Below are positions 2,105 through 7,505 of a stretch of 20,457 nt of DNA, in pieces. The notes beneath the pieces are model-generated. The model worked only from the letters and a program-made list of their open reading frames with translations. It was not told where the DNA came from and ran no database searches. Source of the stretch: Candidatus Methanomethylicia archaeon (lineage in GTDB: Archaea > Thermoproteota > Methanomethylicia > Methanomethylicales > Methanomethylicaceae); NCBI GenBank assembly GCA_024464205.1, contig JANHAI010000005.1, positions 1 to 20,457 on the forward strand. The letters run 5' to 3'. Each line of letters begins with the position of its first letter. The first letter of the stretch is position 1. Both the position numbers and the translations under genes were made by a program.

Positions 2105-2377
2105 TCAGGAGATTCTATCCGTCTCGAACTCTTCGATCAGCTCTTTGTACTTCGAGAGGAACTGCCTCCCTTTCTCGGTCGTAACGTAAAGGTTCCTCTT
2201 CCCATCGCAGTTCCTCATGAACCCTTGCTCAAGAAGCATGCCGATATACTCCCCAGCCTTCGCGAAATTGAGGTTAGCCTGGTATACTATCGTGGTCTTT
2301 CTCACGCCGTTGGCCTTGTCGGCCACCTTCAATATATCGGAAAGCACATCAAAAACTGCCCTTTTCTGCCTCTTCAT
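2105..2377 (-). CDS. Winged helix-turn-helix regulator (HTH_45/ArnR1-like)
   Basis: This is a small archaeal winged-helix DNA-binding protein of about 90 residues. It carries the pattern of the HTH_45 (ArnR1-like) family: an N-terminal helix (FDVLSDILKVAD), then KTTIVYQANLNFAKAGEYIGML as two helices around the turn, and a wing (GFMRNCDGKRNLYVTTEKG). The ATG at 2377 is preferred over the GTG at 2398 because a purine-rich AAGGGGA lies just upstream of it. It sits last in the fibre-gene block on the same strand, but the 105-bp gap before it holds its own TATA-like element. ATACTTAT-type sites in that gap recur ahead of the first fibre gene. It is therefore a candidate local regulator, as activator or repressor. 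No sensor domain or membrane span is visible. Confidence 0.8.
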   Translation of the reverse strand: MKRQKRAVFDVLSDILKVADKANGVRKTTIVYQANLNFAKAGEYIGMLLEQGFMRNCDGKRNLYVTTEKGRQFLSKYKELIEEFETDRIS

Positions 2378-2400
2378 CTTCTTCCCCTTTTCACTCACGC

Positions 2401-2450
2401 ATGCGGAGCATTCCGATAGGAGAAGAATGGGTTGTTGATATTATCCGCAT
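2401..2450. repeat. Inverted repeat flanking the start region of the regulator gene
   Basis: ATGCGGA at 2401-2407 and TCCGCAT at 2444-2450 form a perfect 7-bp inverted repeat. One arm sits immediately upstream of the coding region, the other just downstream of the predicted TATA element. A smaller dyad (CGGA-GCAT-TCCG, 2404-2415) overlaps the first arm. Its role could be autoregulation or leader RNA folding, or it may be chance. Confidence 0.35.
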
Positions 2451-2454
2451 CTAA

Positions 2455-2462
2455 CTATAAAA
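2455..2462 (-). promoter_or_regulatory. TATA-like element of the regulator gene
   Basis: CTTTTATAG on the minus strand is a good archaeal TATA match and would start transcription near 2430, leaving a leader of about 50 bases before the ATG at 2377. An ATACTTAT half-site lies about ten bases upstream of it. Confidence 0.5.
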
Positions 2463-2472
2463 GAATACCGCA

Positions 2473-2510
2473 GATACTTATTAAAAAAAAGTATAAGATG
2501 TACTTATTTA
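2473..2510. promoter_or_regulatory. ATACTTAT-type sites upstream of the regulator gene
   Basis: Two copies of the motif lie here: GATACTTATT at 2473-2482 and TACTTATTTA at 2501-2510, the second overlapping the stop codon of the DUF5305 gene. Both 10-mers recur exactly, on the other strand, at 7233-7242 and 7231-7240 ahead of the fibre operon. They lie just upstream of the TATA-like element of the regulator gene, a common position for an archaeal activator site. Confidence 0.5.
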
Positions 2511-3526
2511 CGCTTTGTAAGCTCGGCTTCCTTGACCCTGTACTGGTATTTTATGTCTCCCTCGACTAATGAGAATGTGTGCTCATCTTCCTTTGTGCTG
2601 TGGAGTACCGGCTTTGCTAGGATCTCAGCCATCTTTATCAAGTCGCCCAAGCTGCTGACAGTTACGGCAGTCTTCACTGCCGGCTCCTGAGCCGCCTTCA
2701 TTATCATGTCTTTGTATTGCGCCAGTACGTCATCGACCGTCCTGGGTTCAATCGGACCGCTCTTTGTGTAAAGGAACGCGAGGGCAGCAAACGCAATCAA
2801 AGATAGTATCGTTCCAACAAGGGTCGCGATCCTCTGGTTCAGGACCCAGACCAGTGTCGTTTCTTGGGTCTCGGTGATCTCGTTGACCTCTGTCGAAACC
2901 AACGGCTCTATAGAGATGTACCTCCCCAGGTTGTTGTCCTGCTTGAACCCGATGGTCAGCTGCGGGTAGAAGGAATCGCTAATCGTTTTCACCGGCGTCA
3001 CCGCAACCAAGCTGATGTTGTTGTAGACTTTCAGGTTGTACGCAAGGCTCGAAGTGCCAACCTCACTGTCTATCGCCTTTACGTAAGCGTTTAGTGCCGC
3101 GTTGTCAATCTGCAGCGCATACTCGCTTCCGCCGCTGAGCTTGAACAGATCAAGGGCCTCCGCAGCTGTTAGGTTCTTCATCCACTTTCCTGGAGATTCT
3201 AGCTGCATCCATACCTGATTCTCGACGCTCCGATTTGTCGCACTTGGGTTTATGATTGAGTTATACTCAAAAGAGATGCTGATGTTGTCTACGAGGGAGG
3301 TGTATAGTATGCCCTCTCCAGGCCTAAGGGTGGTGAAGCCGTAGATTATGTTCGGCTTTAAGTAAGCAACGTAATCGTATGTTGCTACATGCCTGTAAGC
3401 CCCCAACCTCAAGGTTTCGGTCTGTGTTGTTGGCAACTGGTAAGAGTAATAGGCGCTGGCAGCGAGAATTGCTGCGATTATCGCCACCGCTATCGTAATG
3501 ATCCTCAAGGTCGATTTTTTGATCAT
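2504..3526 (-). CDS. DUF5305-family membrane protein
   Basis: This 340-residue protein has an N-terminal membrane anchor (about residues 8-28), a large extracytoplasmic region, a second membrane span (about 233-253) and a cytoplasmic tail of about 85 residues. The segment LGAYRHVATYDYVAYLKPN followed by a TLRPGEGILYTSL stretch fits DUF5305, an archaeal family of unknown function often found beside signal peptidase I genes. A GAGGAAAG Shine-Dalgarno sequence lies a few bases before the ATG. It follows the third TasA-like gene after 51 bp that include a T6 run, so it is probably the last gene of the fibre operon. It could be a membrane platform, chaperone or anchor for the secreted subunits; this role is inferred from neighbourhood only. 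No enzymatic motif is visible. Confidence 0.82.
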   Translation of the reverse strand: MIKKSTLRIITIAVAIIAAILAASAYYSYQLPTTQTETLRLGAYRHVATYDYVAYLKPNIIYGFTTLRPGEGILYTSLVDNISISFEYNSIINPSATNRSVENQVWMQLESPGKWMKNLTAAEALDLFKLSGGSEYALQIDNAALNAYVKAIDSEVGTSSLAYNLKVYNNISLVAVTPVKTISDSFYPQLTIGFKQDNNLGRYISIEPLVSTEVNEITETQETTLVWVLNQRIATLVGTILSLIAFAALAFLYTKSGPIEPRTVDDVLAQYKDMIMKAAQEPAVKTAVTVSSLGDLIKMAEILAKPVLHSTKEDEHTFSLVEGDIKYQYRVKEAELTKRK

Positions 3527-3577
3527 TTTCTTTCCTCATTGTTATTGCTCATCTATTGATCTTTGACGATAAAAAAG

Positions 3578-4402
3578 CTACGGGGGATAATGGGCAGTCG
3601 CTGATGTCGTGAACGGCAGCACGGGGCTGCTTATTACCCCTATCCTGTTCCCAGGTGTCCCGTCATCAGTAATCCGGAGCGTAATGTTGCTCGTGACTGC
3701 AGTCAGCGCGTGATCAAGCGCATAGGCATCGACCCTCGCGCCAGTCTTGTGGTCCATGTCGCCGTTGACCTCGAGGTACTGCCAGTCCCCCTCGTCTCCA
3801 CTGGTGGGCTCGTAAGCCCCTGCCGGATTCTTCTCAGTAGCCAGCCAAATTACGAGCCTCACGGAATCGCCTGGCCCAAGCGTCCCAATGAGCCACGTGA
3901 AGAAATATTTCGTGAAGCCGCTGGGGTTTGTGACATTAGTCCAGATCAGCCCCTCGCTGGCATTCTTGGGGCCTATGCCAGGTCCGATCCGGTCGCTCAC
4001 TTGCACGTTTGTCAACGTTGTCTCCCCGCAATTCTTGACGATTATTATTAGCTGGAATAGAGACGGGAACTCCTCGGGCGTCACAGGGCACAGCGGATCT
4101 TCGCCGACTAATCCCAGCAGATCGTCGGTGGATCCATTTATTACTTTGGGGGAAGATCCAGTCCCTATATGAATGAGGTTTGTAGGCGTCGTTAACTCCT
4201 TCCCTGTGTACGGATCAGTGAAAGATCCGTTCAATGTCTTCGAAACCTCAACGCACGCCCCCTGCCACGTGCCAGTAGTCACCGTCCCCTGGACATAGAA
4301 CTCCTTATACCATAGCGGGTACGCCGAACCCACAAACGACATCATTATTATCGGCGTGAGTACCAGTACCACAATTCCCCTACTCAATATTCCCTTTCTC
4401 AT
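3578..4402 (-). CDS. TasA/camelysin-like secreted protein with DUF11-like domain
   Basis: This 274-residue exported protein begins with a signal peptide (hydrophobic residues about 10-27) ending in SAYPLWYKEFYVQGTVTTG. That matches the AYGLWYQTL...G.V.TG signature of its two smaller neighbours and the SipW-dependent signal peptides of TasA and camelysin. A DUF11-like beta-sandwich region follows (about residues 114-235), with KNCGETTLTNVQVSDRIGPG and IGTLGPGDSVRL. Its ATG overlaps the TGA of the peptidase gene (ATGA), and a perfect AAGGAGG lies at 4411-4417, so it is translationally coupled and efficiently initiated. I infer a minor fibre component such as a tip, anchor or adhesive subunit, because it is larger than its paralogues and lies after the peptidase rather than with them. 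A direct function is not established. Confidence 0.78.
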   Translation of the reverse strand: MRKGILSRGIVVLVLTPIIMMSFVGSAYPLWYKEFYVQGTVTTGTWQGACVEVSKTLNGSFTDPYTGKELTTPTNLIHIGTGSSPKVINGSTDDLLGLVGEDPLCPVTPEEFPSLFQLIIIVKNCGETTLTNVQVSDRIGPGIGPKNASEGLIWTNVTNPSGFTKYFFTWLIGTLGPGDSVRLVIWLATEKNPAGAYEPTSGDEGDWQYLEVNGDMDHKTGARVDAYALDHALTAVTSNITLRITDDGTPGNRIGVISSPVLPFTTSATAHYPP

Positions 4403-5700
4403 ACAGAAAACCTCCTTCTAGTCCCCATGTAATATTTATAACAAACAATCGAGAACGCCCCGAAGAGCAAAACAAGGGCCGAATAGATCAGAAGCGCATT
4501 CGCTGCCAGAGCCGCTCCTGCTTCAGAAACCCATGCCTTTAGGTATATTGAGGCCCATCCGACTTGGGGTATAAGATAGACCACCTTGCTGACTGCCCCG
4601 CTCACTATTATCGGAGGGTCTGCTGCATTATTGGCGTCCCCCTTCGTCACGACCGTATAACCGCTTACTGCCTTGCTGATCTCCACCACGCGGTGTATGA
4701 TCAGCTGCTGGGATCCTTGCCGCATATAAACGATCACATCACCGCCCTTCAGATTTTCAACATTTGTGCTGACCGTGATGGCCACGTCCCCCATCTTCAT
4801 GAATGGCGTCATGCTCTCGCCAGCGACCACCGTAGGCTGGAACCCAAAGAGGCCGGTTGGCACCCAGAGAATGATGAGGAGGGCTATCGCAACAGCGACC
4901 CATGCGCCAAATCCCCCGCCTCTTTTAAGGCGGTGCCTCATCAGATCGCCCCTCCTCAATATGCCTGTTCGTATCAGCTTGTATCTGCTCTCGAACTGGC
5001 TCACTATAAGGAAGCCAAATGACGGGACCAATGTTTCTATGAGCGCTTTCACCGTCCAAGTGGGGTTCGGGAGGATAGGGGAGATCCATTGGAACGCCTC
5101 GATGACTGTCAGGTATAGTATTGATGATGACGGTCCGCCCAGCGCTACGAGGAAAGTCGCAAAGAGGTTGACAGCCAAAGTCGGTATGAAAGCGCTTCCG
5201 ATGAACTTTATGACCTCGAGTCCGCCTGAAAGGTAGATGAAAGAGCTTGGCGGCAAGTAAAATATCGTGAAAAGGAAAGCTATGATCGCAATCTTCCAGA
5301 GCATCCCCCTTTTGGAGCATCCGCTAATAATTGTCGCACGTGCGAACTCAAGGGCAATTATCGCCGAAGAGAATGTCAAAATGTTGACCGTGATGCCATA
5401 AGGCGTCAGCGAATACGGATTCCTTCCGAACCCCATGATGACGCCTGAGCCAAAAAGTACCACTATCTGGAAGATGGCGACGCTCACGCCCAGCATGATC
5501 ACGTCCCTGCTAAAATTCATCCTGAGCAGGCTCAGGCCGCCTCTCTTGCCCATTATAAACAGCACAATTATCAGAATAACCCATGATAAGATCGTCAAAA
5601 AATAGAAAGCAGGCCCGACGGCGACCCTGGGGACAACAAAATACACTGCCAAATACGTCAGCGCTGCGACTGCCGCCGTCCCCACAATCTTGCCGTCCAT
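4399..5700 (-). CDS. SipW-like signal peptidase I fused to an N-terminal multi-span membrane domain
   Basis: The C-terminal half is a type I signal peptidase of the archaeal/ER/SipW kind. The catalytic serine is in GESMTPFMKMGD (Ser296), the usual bacterial lysine is replaced by histidine in IHRVVEI (His336), and a conserved GDANNAADPP follows (Asp355, Asp361). The peptidase is anchored by spans at about 265-286 and 395-420. About 250 residues before it form some six membrane spans, which ordinary signal peptidases lack. Parts of this region (ALEFARATIISG, FTIFYLPPS and a later GGPSSSILYLTVIE) faintly resemble CPBP-type intramembrane proteases without the catalytic residues. An AAGGAT Shine-Dalgarno sequence precedes the ATG. 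Lying among three genes with TasA/SipW-type signal peptides, it most likely cleaves them. The peptidase call is firm; the N-terminal relation is weak. Confidence 0.88.
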   Translation of the reverse strand: MDGKIVGTAAVAALTYLAVYFVVPRVAVGPAFYFLTILSWVILIIVLFIMGKRGGLSLLRMNFSRDVIMLGVSVAIFQIVVLFGSGVIMGFGRNPYSLTPYGITVNILTFSSAIIALEFARATIISGCSKRGMLWKIAIIAFLFTIFYLPPSSFIYLSGGLEVIKFIGSAFIPTLAVNLFATFLVALGGPSSSILYLTVIEAFQWISPILPNPTWTVKALIETLVPSFGFLIVSQFESRYKLIRTGILRRGDLMRHRLKRGGGFGAWVAVAIALLIILWVPTGLFGFQPTVVAGESMTPFMKMGDVAITVSTNVENLKGGDVIVYMRQGSQQLIIHRVVEISKAVSGYTVVTKGDANNAADPPIIVSGAVSKVVYLIPQVGWASIYLKAWVSEAGAALAANALLIYSALVLLFGAFSIVCYKYYMGTRRRFSV

Positions 5701-5724
5701 CTGCCCACATCCTTATTTTTTTTT

Positions 5725-5741
5725 AAAAAAAAATAAAAAAG
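5725..5741 (-). terminator. U-tract between fibre subunit genes and peptidase gene
   Basis: On the minus strand the 56-bp gap after the second TasA-like gene reads T6-A-T9. The whole stretch 5711-5742 is also an imperfect inverted repeat (CCTTATTT.../...AAATAAAAAAGG). U-runs of this kind terminate archaeal RNA polymerase, fully or partly. Since the downstream genes show no promoter of their own here, partial read-through is likely. Confidence 0.55.
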
Positions 5742-5756
5742 GTTGGTTTAGTCCAT

Positions 5757-6425
5757 TTACTTGGGAGGAATGTATTCGTTCCATTGCACTACCGTCAGCT
5801 CGATCGAGAATGTCAATGTAGCCCCTTGCGGAGCTTCTTGGAGCACATGGATGTAGAAGCTTATTTCCACTCTGCCTGATCCAGGAACGTTAGGGTCATA
5901 TGGATGGACCTGCGTTCCGAAGTTGTCAAGCCAAAGTATCTCAATGTCCGCGTTTTGATCGTCATTGAGATCTAAAAGAACATATGGCGTCCCTTTTCTT
6001 GCAGTTGCAACTACATCACCATTGTTATCCTTGAACACCGCAGTATCGATTATCCATGGTAGAGTACCGGTGTTAAATGGCTTGAACGTGACATCCGTGA
6101 AGTAGCATGGATACACGTTTTGCAATGTGACGTATAGGCTGCAATTCCTAACTTCTACGATTGTCCTTCCCACGTCTTTAGCGTCTGGGATTCTCCAATA
6201 ATCTCCGCCAGAGGCGTTAGGTAAGAATCCTCTGGGGCTGCTTGTCCAGTCAAGGCTACCTATATCCATGTCTAGTGCTGAGACTCCAGTTATGCAAACT
6301 TCTAGCCTGCCTGTCTCAACTTCGCCCTCGACCGTGAGGGTCTGGTACCAAAGCCCATAGGCCATCGCCATCGCCAGCAGGGCAACTGCAATCGCTGCAG
6401 GGAACATCGCTACCTTTGTCTTCAT
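5757..6425 (-). CDS. TasA/AbpA-like secreted fibre subunit, second copy
   Basis: This is a 222-residue secreted protein. The N-terminus is a short basic stretch, a hydrophobic core (about residues 7-22) and then AYGLWYQTLTVEGEVETG, the signature of SipW-processed TasA/camelysin proteins and of archaeal bundling-pilus subunits. The remainder is beta-rich with no membrane span. It shares with the neighbour at 6436 an NxYPC segment, an NTGTxPxxI segment, a QVHP region and a C-terminal GATLTFSIELTVVQWNEY close. It starts 10 bp after that gene, with GGTGGT overlapping the neighbour's stop as ribosome-binding site. It is likely a structural subunit that polymerises outside the cell, possibly by donor-strand exchange as known for TasA. 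The polymerisation is inferred, not visible. Confidence 0.78.
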   Translation of the reverse strand: MKTKVAMFPAAIAVALLAMAMAYGLWYQTLTVEGEVETGRLEVCITGVSALDMDIGSLDWTSSPRGFLPNASGGDYWRIPDAKDVGRTIVEVRNCSLYVTLQNVYPCYFTDVTFKPFNTGTLPWIIDTAVFKDNNGDVVATARKGTPYVLLDLNDDQNADIEILWLDNFGTQVHPYDPNVPGSGRVEISFYIHVLQEAPQGATLTFSIELTVVQWNEYIPPK

Positions 6426-6435
6426 TTAGACCACC

Positions 6436-7053
6436 TTAAGATGCACCATTGTCAGGAACTGGAGGTGCCATCGGGAACTCGTTCCACTGCTCGACCACTA
6501 ACTTGTAGGCGAAGACATATGTTGCGCCCTGCTCTGCTGTGTTCTCAAGATGGATGTGGAAGACCCCCATCGCGAACTCGCCTGGATGCACCTGCGTGCC
6601 ATTAGTTATCCATAAAACTGGAAGAACATCTGGGTGCTTATAATCAGGTGGCCACTGCACATCATCAGGGTTAGTTATGAAGTCCAACTGGCCAACATTC
6701 GGTGACAGGTTACCATTAAAGAAACCTGGGTTGTAGATCTTTATCGGGATAGTGCCCGTGTTTGTCAAGTTGACTGCGCAATAGTAATGAACGCATGGAT
6801 ATGCGTTGGTCACCGTTATGTATATCGTGTCCCCGTCTGCCCTGCAAGAGATGCTTGAATAATTTTTGTACTCGCCTGTATTTTCGTTGTATTCTATGTC
6901 CCAGCAATGATGGCACGTCCATGTGGCGCTAACCGTTCCAGTGTTGACAGTTCCGTAAATGTACAATGTCTGGTACCAAAGCCCATAAGCGACGCTCATC
7001 CCCAATAGTGCAACAATAGACACTGCGAATAACATACCTGCTTTTGTTCTCAT
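6436..7053 (-). CDS. TasA/AbpA-like secreted fibre subunit, first copy
   Basis: This is the first gene of the fibre operon. The 205-residue product has a signal peptide (hydrophobic residues about 8-22) ending in AYGLWYQTLYIYGTVNTG, followed by a beta-rich body and a C-terminal GATYVFAYKLVVEQWNEF, closely parallel to its downstream paralogue. It is richer in cysteine (CHHC, SCRADG, YPCVHYYC), so disulfides or metal binding are possible. An AGGAG ribosome-binding site lies about 11 bases before the ATG. The long leader, with two hairpins and ATACTTAT sites upstream, suggests regulated and perhaps high expression. The family (TasA, camelysin, archaeal AbpA) forms extracellular matrix fibres or bundling pili; which of the two paralogues is the main subunit cannot be told from sequence. 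Confidence 0.78.
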   Translation of the reverse strand: MRTKAGMLFAVSIVALLGMSVAYGLWYQTLYIYGTVNTGTVSATWTCHHCWDIEYNENTGEYKNYSSISCRADGDTIYITVTNAYPCVHYYCAVNLTNTGTIPIKIYNPGFFNGNLSPNVGQLDFITNPDDVQWPPDYKHPDVLPVLWITNGTQVHPGEFAMGVFHIHLENTAEQGATYVFAYKLVVEQWNEFPMAPPVPDNGAS

Positions 7054-7084
7054 ACACTTTCAACTCCTTATTGGGGCTATCATC

Positions 7085-7133
7085 GGGAACGAAAAAACAG
7101 TTCCCTTTAACGGGGCCTCCCCTAAGTGCCCCG
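7085..7133 (-). promoter_or_regulatory. Two hairpins in the fibre operon 5' leader
   Basis: In the minus-strand RNA, CGGGGC/GCCCCG (7128-7133 with 7111-7116) is followed by GGGAAC/GTTCCC (7100-7105 with 7085-7090), the latter with a T6 run in its loop. A second GGGG in the first loop can pair with the same CCCC, so two alternative folds exist. They lie about 30 to 80 bases before the start codon, with the ribosome-binding site outside the stems. Confidence 0.4.
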
Positions 7134-7175
7134 AGCCAGCAACACCACCATAGGACTGTTATGCTGACTAATTCT

Positions 7176-7220: not shown

Positions 7221-7254
7221 ATACTTATCATAAATAAGTATCTAAAATAAGTAT
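7221..7254. promoter_or_regulatory. ATACTTAT operator-like palindrome and extra half-site
   Basis: ATACTTAT-CATAA-ATAAGTAT (7221-7241) is a perfect 8-bp inverted repeat with a five-base spacer, followed by a further AATAAGTAT at 7246-7254. It lies about 35 to 70 bp upstream of the predicted TATA element. The same half-site occurs twice before the winged-helix gene at the other end of the block, pointing to a shared regulator. Confidence 0.55.
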
Positions 7255-7420
7255 TCTTGATATCATTATTTGCACAAACGCACAATTTTTTTAAGCATTA
7301 TAACCTCGGACGAGATTTCGAGATTAATGCAGCTTTGGCGTCAAACGGCAAAATCAGATTTGTAGTAGAATACCCGTACCCATAGACCTTGGCAACCCCC
7401 TGGCGTCGATGGTTGAAAAG

Positions 7421-7505
7421 TGCGGGGGGTGGGATTTGAACCCACGAAGGCCTTCGCCACAAGGTCCTGAGCCTTGCGCCTTTGACCTGACTTGGCGACC
7501 CCCGC
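7421..7505 (-). tRNA. tRNA-Leu (anticodon CAG)
   Basis: The minus strand folds as a class II tRNA. The acceptor GCGGGGG pairs with CCCCCGC and discriminator A (7421). The D arm is GCC/GGC and the anticodon arm CAAGG-CTCAGGA-CCTTG gives anticodon CAG. A long variable arm holds GAAGG/CCTTC, and the T arm is GTGGG-TTCAAAT-CCCAC. A long variable arm, anticodon CAG and discriminator A identify leucine. There is no intron and no encoded CCA. A short T-run follows the 3' end. Confidence 0.95.

Follow-up and report, generated by a model that had tools for sequence, protein, structure and literature searches.

A block of six genes in the genome of a Candidatus Methanomethylicia archaeon of the Methanosuratincola family (assembly GCA_024464205.1, contig JANHAI010000005.1) probably encodes a system that builds protein fibres of the AbpX type. 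The window analyzed here is the entire 20,457-base contig (C76) of a 1.17-Mb metagenome-assembled genome (MAG) that is 78.5% complete. Its six open reading frames (ORFs), all on the minus strand and all confirmed within the stretch first named for the block, read in 5' to 3' order: subunit A, its paralogue B, a long signal peptidase, a further secreted protein C, a DUF5305 protein and a winged-helix protein. We read the block, with a probability of about 0.64, as a donor-strand fibre operon whose own peptidase cuts the subunits and whose DUF5305 protein holds the fibre base at the membrane, a reading built on the genes and their conserved order, the homology of A and B to AbpX, the conservation of the peptidase's catalytic residues, and the linkage, in two genomes the fusion, of peptidase and DUF5305.

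Subunits A (P0001; positions 6436..7053, minus strand; 205 amino acids) and B (P0002; 5757..6425, minus strand; 222 amino acids) are paralogues (37% over A residues 75-194 and 49% over residues 1-49), and in this MAG subunit genes are present at this locus only. A combines a SipW-type signal peptide (residues 1-24) with a beta-rich core, and neither protein has a Pfam match at E<=1. When a profile of 28 subunit sequences, A and B included, was compared with the Protein Data Bank (PDB), the AbpX entries 9sj2 (E=1.1e-12) and 9rhp (E=1.3e-7) were recovered, while TasA reached only E=1.0-1.2. A and B are thus homologues of a fibre subunit, archaeal bundling protein X (AbpX), whose name matches the ABPx fibre of Pyrodictium abyssi in PMC11952670, but the kinship to TasA or camelysin itself that a preliminary description of this DNA had proposed is undetectable at the level of sequence. 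Profile-profile comparison (hhalign) with the TasA-like proteins of four short-SipW loci was also tried and gave 13.5% probability over 23 columns, all of them within the signal-peptide and strand motif.

In the 28-sequence alignment the N-terminal strand stands out as one of the most conserved segments of the subunit family, with W26 and G39 invariant (28/28) and T38 and G34 kept in at least 90% of the sequences. Among loci L181-L220 the exact AbpX motif occurs in one genome, G231 (locus L186), and there the ORF counted from its QW to the end has 163 residues, the length of the deposited chain 9sj2_C, from which it follows that the mature chain of AbpX begins one residue ahead of the Trp. Aligned with AbpX, A and B have their predicted cleavage site between G24 and L25; both then have a SipW-type signal peptide and the conserved Trp one residue into the predicted mature chain. 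The predicted donor strands are residues 25-39 in each protein (minus strand, nucleotides 6937-6981 in A and 6309-6353 in B). Entry 9rhp carries QWSETLSLSATISTG at its C-terminus, the first 15 residues of the chain having been moved there, and we take it to be a donor-strand-complemented construct.

An AlphaFold model of A (predicted local distance difference test score, pLDDT, 81.6; predicted template modelling score, pTM, 0.68) places strands between residues 43 and 189 and leaves residues 26-42 at low confidence and devoid of secondary structure; Foldseek and VIA returned only generic immunoglobulin (Ig)-like matches for it. Given such matches, and given that polymerisation of A and B is argued by analogy, one could imagine a monomeric surface layer as the product of the operon, with A, B and C serving as secreted coat or adhesion proteins of the SipW type that never polymerise. 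We consider this improbable: the closest relative with a solved structure is a fibre protein (AbpX, as described in the accessible part of PMC11952670), the N-terminal strand is highly conserved, and the AbpX gene has a like peptidase as its neighbour, a 380-residue protein of the long kind encoded about 220 nucleotides downstream (16 bits to the N-terminal-domain hidden Markov model (HMM) and 102 bits to the catalytic one).

The peptidase of the fibre operon (P0003; 4399..5700, minus strand; 433 amino acids) joins a membrane domain (about residues 1-262) to an S26B catalytic domain (about residues 268-405). The Ser-His signal peptidase that had been claimed for this operon is indeed present: TIGR02228 is matched with 85.8 bits (cut-off 51.85) over the S26B region, residues 270-405, and the catalytic residues are kept. 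S26B peptidases rely on Ser, His and Asp residues for catalysis, and S296 (minus strand, nucleotides 4813-4815), H336 (4693-4695), D355 and D361 are invariant in all 96 distinct aligned proteins, a set that includes the window's own and 59 from bacterial loci (98/98 when two duplicates are counted). The model of Bacillus SipW, NF046067, is not reached (56 versus 190 bits). The membrane domain, up to about residue 262, is hydrophobic and probably contains several helices according to a Kyte-Doolittle scan; no Pfam family exceeds its cut-off in this domain in the window protein or six relatives; the few matches below the cut-off are weak and differ among proteins. Several of its residues are nevertheless near-invariant (E118 in 93/96, R121 in 92/96 and P208 in 93/96; P211 is kept in 84/96). 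That the signal peptidase is fused to a membrane domain outside any Pfam family was overlooked in the preliminary description. One further match to the peptidase alignment exists in this MAG.

A scan of contigs with the peptidase alignment found at least 491 relatives, of which the best 80 were used, so that the counts that follow lean towards the window's kind; HMMs seeded from the loci divided these into 61 long and 19 short peptidases. A DUF5305 gene lies within 3 kb of 56 of the 61 long peptidases but of only two of the 19 short ones, and a subunit-like ORF lies within 4 kb of 57/61 and 2/19, respectively. In 46 of the 56 linked loci DUF5305 starts no more than 100 nucleotides from the end of the peptidase. 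Three long loci lacking DUF5305 (L041, L047 and L049) end within 900 bases, and the two exceptions among the short loci are doubtful, one being a 122-residue ORF (L110) and the other a 370-residue protein whose N-terminal half is below threshold (L118). The gene combination, which had been thought to differ from that of bacteria, is not peculiar in this sense, since subunit-like ORFs, long peptidase and DUF5305 occur together in many Bacillota MAGs and in a few other bacterial MAGs; the Chloroflexota loci L047 and L059 have peptidase and subunit-like ORFs with no DUF5305 in view. The pair of peptidase and DUF5305 also occurs in a cultured strain, Acidaminobacter sp. JC074 (L055).

The DUF5305 gene (2504..3526, minus strand; 340 amino acids) is present in one copy in this MAG and matches PF17231 with 55.1 bits (gathering score 29), as the preliminary description had it. 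A confident model computed from 58 sequences (pLDDT 93.6, pTM 0.69) shows a membrane helix (residues 4-30), a beta ectodomain (34-224), a second membrane helix (226-255) and a small mixed domain (264-338); from this layout, residues 34-224 would be outside the cell and 264-338 in the cytosol. Structure comparison gave weak generic matches only, Ig domains among them, and a literature search found no papers on DUF5305. In the literature examined, parts of papers in several cases, the long peptidase or DUF5305 is undescribed, although key papers beyond that literature could describe the neighbourhood. We put a role for the DUF5305 protein as a membrane-held, Ig-like partner at the fibre base at a little short of even odds.

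A search of 398 genomes of the phylum with PF17231 gave matches in 49, in 36 of them over the cut-off, and in none of 14 controls. Of the 39 matches over the cut-off that were counted (the window and the second piece of a broken gene in G005 being excluded), 27 have an ORF recognised by the S26 HMM no more than 3 kb away. Among the 12 without one, nine have less than 1.4 kb of sequence on one side, and those in G040, G032 and G005 have room. Fusion of the two proteins in a single ORF is seen twice, in genomes of the same genus (L243:8138-9691 in G259 and L247:6913-8499 in G264), the peptidase domain occupying residues 13-125 and DUF5305 residues 185-516 in L243. Family f27 (L244, L245 and L246) shows DUF5305 adjoining a protein of 347-369 residues whose S26 match is weak (29-38 bits); this may be a second class of peptidase-DUF5305 pair. 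A diverged pair of S26 and DUF5305 genes was also seen at 343-3133 of L216 (G002, same genus as the window), on a different contig from that with the tRNA-Leu site. Across loci L181-L220, some of them fetched because of DUF5305, 34 have an S26-type ORF, and 24 of these 34 have DUF5305. DUF5305 is thus a frequent, though not constant, partner of the peptidase, an association that had been overlooked.

Several observations weigh against the fibre operon as we have described it, most of them through DUF5305. The bacterial long loci L059 and L087 have no DUF5305 despite room downstream. Many of the 61 long loci come from related gut MAGs and do not amount to 61 independent cases. With the DUF5305 HMM no match was obtained at L186, the AbpX locus, or in L181-L183 (family f18), L200, L206, L212, L214, L215 or L040. 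Since the peptidase of L186 and of the other eight loci in this list from L181 to L215 is followed by at least 3.6 kb of sequence, DUF5305 is not obligatory nearby; in G074, the genome of L214, it lies on another contig. Structure comparisons did not place A beside AbpX or TasA. Finally, a subunit-like ORF lies within 6 kb of only 19 of the 39 counted PF17231 matches, and it is missing around nine of the 27 that have an S26 partner; DUF5305 may therefore act for the peptidase rather than for the fibre. These last counts, with the 20/39 matches lacking a subunit-like ORF (several at contig ends) and the absence of recognised subunits near the fusion ORFs and the f27 pairs, also suit a broader role in which DUF5305 and S26 form a general signal-peptidase pair for several exported cargos, fibre subunits being only one. 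Subunits that are too divergent would escape the subunit HMM, however, and nearly all long-peptidase loci (the 57/61 above) do have subunit-like ORFs; we regard such a general pair as possible yet doubtful.

That DUF5305 is a sensor, its ectodomain binding unassembled subunits or peptidase and its far domain signalling to the cell and so feeding back on a fibre operon otherwise correctly read, is in our view unlikely. Two helices together with a further domain that is modelled with confidence (residues 264-338) would suit it, as would the winged-helix gene that directly follows DUF5305 in the Methanosuratincola group, but Pfam recognises no signalling domain family in the DUF5305 protein, and fusion to the peptidase and close adjacency in bacteria agree better with a partner whose role is structural or enzymatic.

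Under the fibre-operon reading, A, B and C would be exported by the Sec pathway and the long peptidase would cut before Leu25 in A and B and before Leu30 in C, as motif, linkage and AbpX alignment suggest, its membrane half perhaps acting as a docking platform. The new N-terminal strand of A or B would then insert into the next subunit, giving donor-strand polymerisation as expected from AbpX, and the DUF5305 protein may be the Ig-like anchor or assembly partner that receives freshly cut subunits. More tentatively, the long peptidase and DUF5305 may form one machine shared by Bacteria and Archaea, in which the peptidase frees donor strands and the Ig-like ectodomain receives them and so nucleates fibres. 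If true, such a cut-and-nucleate pair would be a membrane-anchored chaperone and base for fibres without a known assembly platform.

Protein C (P0004; 3578..4402, minus strand; 274 amino acids) is a SipW-type secreted protein whose start overlaps the end of the peptidase by 4 nucleotides. It scores 22.9 bits to DUF11, below the gathering score of 24.6, and its counterpart in L042 passes with 26.5 bits. Because it is located between the peptidase and DUF5305, C is likely a minor or adaptor subunit; a subunit-like ORF occupies the same position in four bacterial loci (L048, L052, L070 and L076). Thus three secreted proteins are present, as first described, but they are not consecutive, since the peptidase separates C from A and B. 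All three carry the A-x-x-LWY...G.V.TG signature that had been attributed to them (AYG-LWYQTLYIYGTVNTG in A, AYG-LWYQTLTVEGEVETG in B and AYP-LWYKEFYVQGTVTTG in C).

The subunit family, through AbpX, and the idea of archaeal TasA-like fibres are already known. The archaeal bundling pili (AbpA) of Pyrobaculum calidifontis are reportedly donor-strand fibres of TasA-like type; PDB searches with the subunits, including those of family-f18 genomes, returned no chain named AbpA, and the only fibre protein found was AbpX. AbpX (9sj2, 9rhp) shares with the window the subunit family, the signal-peptide and strand motif and an adjoining long S26 peptidase, but one subunit gene and no DUF5305 were found at its locus, whereas the window has two paralogous subunits, C and DUF5305. 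In the Bacillus tapA-sipW-tasA and B. cereus sipW-tasA/calY operons a dedicated signal peptidase is likewise encoded beside secreted subunits, and TasA fibres assemble by donor-strand exchange (from the accessible portions of PMC9674648, PMC10151520 and PMC13082335). Bacillus SipW is short and lacks the membrane domain of approximately 260 residues that the window peptidase has ahead of its catalytic domain; the short-type loci include the two doubtful DUF5305 cases noted above, and their TasA-like proteins are unmatched by sequence. Clostridium perfringens, according to the available text of PMC7395162, has a sipW-bsaABCRSD operon in which sipW lies beside genes for secreted proteins, BsaA forms polymers and the operon is needed for pellicle formation. 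It includes two-component regulators, and the string "DUF" is absent from that paper.

The last gene of the block encodes a 97-residue winged-helix protein (2105..2398, minus strand, GTG start; Sso10a/HTH_45), which scores 70.3 to the Sso10a-family model NF053610 (cut-off 60), in agreement with the preliminary description, and is a candidate regulator. Its gene lies 105 nucleotides from that of DUF5305, so that the tight spacing described for the block needs correction at this point, while the common strand stands. Matches to the protein were found by phmmer (E<=0.001) in 19 of the 40 loci L181-L220, several of them in proteins of 200-250 residues. The window contains four copies of the octamer ATACTTAT where 0.21 would be expected; three lie upstream of A and the fourth (2474..2481) lies upstream of the winged-helix gene. 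Two elements upstream of A, at 7221-7241, form the dyad ATACTTAT-N5-ATAAGTAT, and with the third half-site (7247-7254) they delimit a candidate operator region, 7221..7254; allowing gaps of 2-8 bases, such a dyad occurs once in the whole MAG, here, with its 5-base gap. In a local simulation none of 5000 sequences had four or more copies of ATACTTAT, although some 8-mer reached that number in five of 400 simulated pairs. Related imperfect half-sites lie upstream of A in L035, L036 and L038, but none was found before the winged-helix gene of L035 or L036, and because those upstream regions lack the motif the idea of autoregulation draws on the window's own copy. The winged-helix protein might conceivably be a regulator that acts through the ATACTTAT dyads.

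The leader of A (7054-7170, minus strand) can form hairpins, as can those of L035, L036 and L038; the leaders of L036 and L038 have two hairpins and then a run of C just before the likely ribosome-binding site. In a check for riboswitches, folding z-scores were only -1.0 to -1.7 and no Rfam family matched the leaders of A.

All six genes stand in the same order in L035 and L036, and L037, L038 and L039 keep this order up to a contig end, so the block is not a chance arrangement; in the more distant L040 the subunit and peptidase genes are arranged differently. Subunit genes co-occur with the peptidase in all six relative loci (L035-L040), in support of the preliminary description. At 13480-17941 of L040 (G056) we noted three subunit-like ORFs, a long peptidase whose match counts an in-frame TGA, divergent winged-helix genes and, as above, no DUF5305. 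The block is bordered upstream by a tRNA-Leu(CAG) gene (7420..7505, minus strand), with a tRNA at the corresponding site in L035, L036 and L038, and L035 and L036 share flanking genes on both sides as well as the tRNA just upstream. In the congener G003 (L222) tRNA-Leu ends at 5629 and a ferredoxin-like gene starts at 5786, the block being missing between them, and in G005 (L225) a DUF5305 fragment (4079-4678), likely a decayed copy, lies beside tRNA-Leu with no other operon gene found. From the shared flanks, the empty site and the fragment we conclude that the block has probably long been present at this site in the family and was lost, or gained, more than once. GC content is approximately 0.46-0.53 across the block and mostly 0.57-0.64 in its flanks (1-kb windows). 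A mobile island or provirus was considered and is not favoured, as the same genes flank the block in L035 and L036; an Rfam scan gave only tRNAs over the cut-off, and a scan for viral contigs gave one partial match only, L248.

A quick tree of 94 long peptidases, which we use loosely, groups the window peptidase with those of Methanosuratincola (96) and with one from Archaeoglobaceae (94); the adjacent group comprises Bacillota, a Chloroflexi MAG and one Thermoprotei MAG (80). Genomes G010, G033 and G056 are not in this tree, loci L037, L039 and L040 being outside the pool and L041 and L049 (G010, G033) having been dropped as duplicates. The placement hints, without proof, at exchange between Bacteria and Archaea.

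If the fibre-operon reading is true, AbpX-type fibres extend to the Methanosuratincola family of archaea, in which a cultured relative, Methanosuratincola petrocarbonis, forms aggregates according to the available part of PMC12244365. The uncharacterised DUF5305 family and a membrane domain that has no Pfam family would become tied to fibre biogenesis, and one cut-and-anchor gene pair would run through Bacillota and Archaea, a pair that makes the start of the fibre and its attachment to the cell testable by gene deletion.

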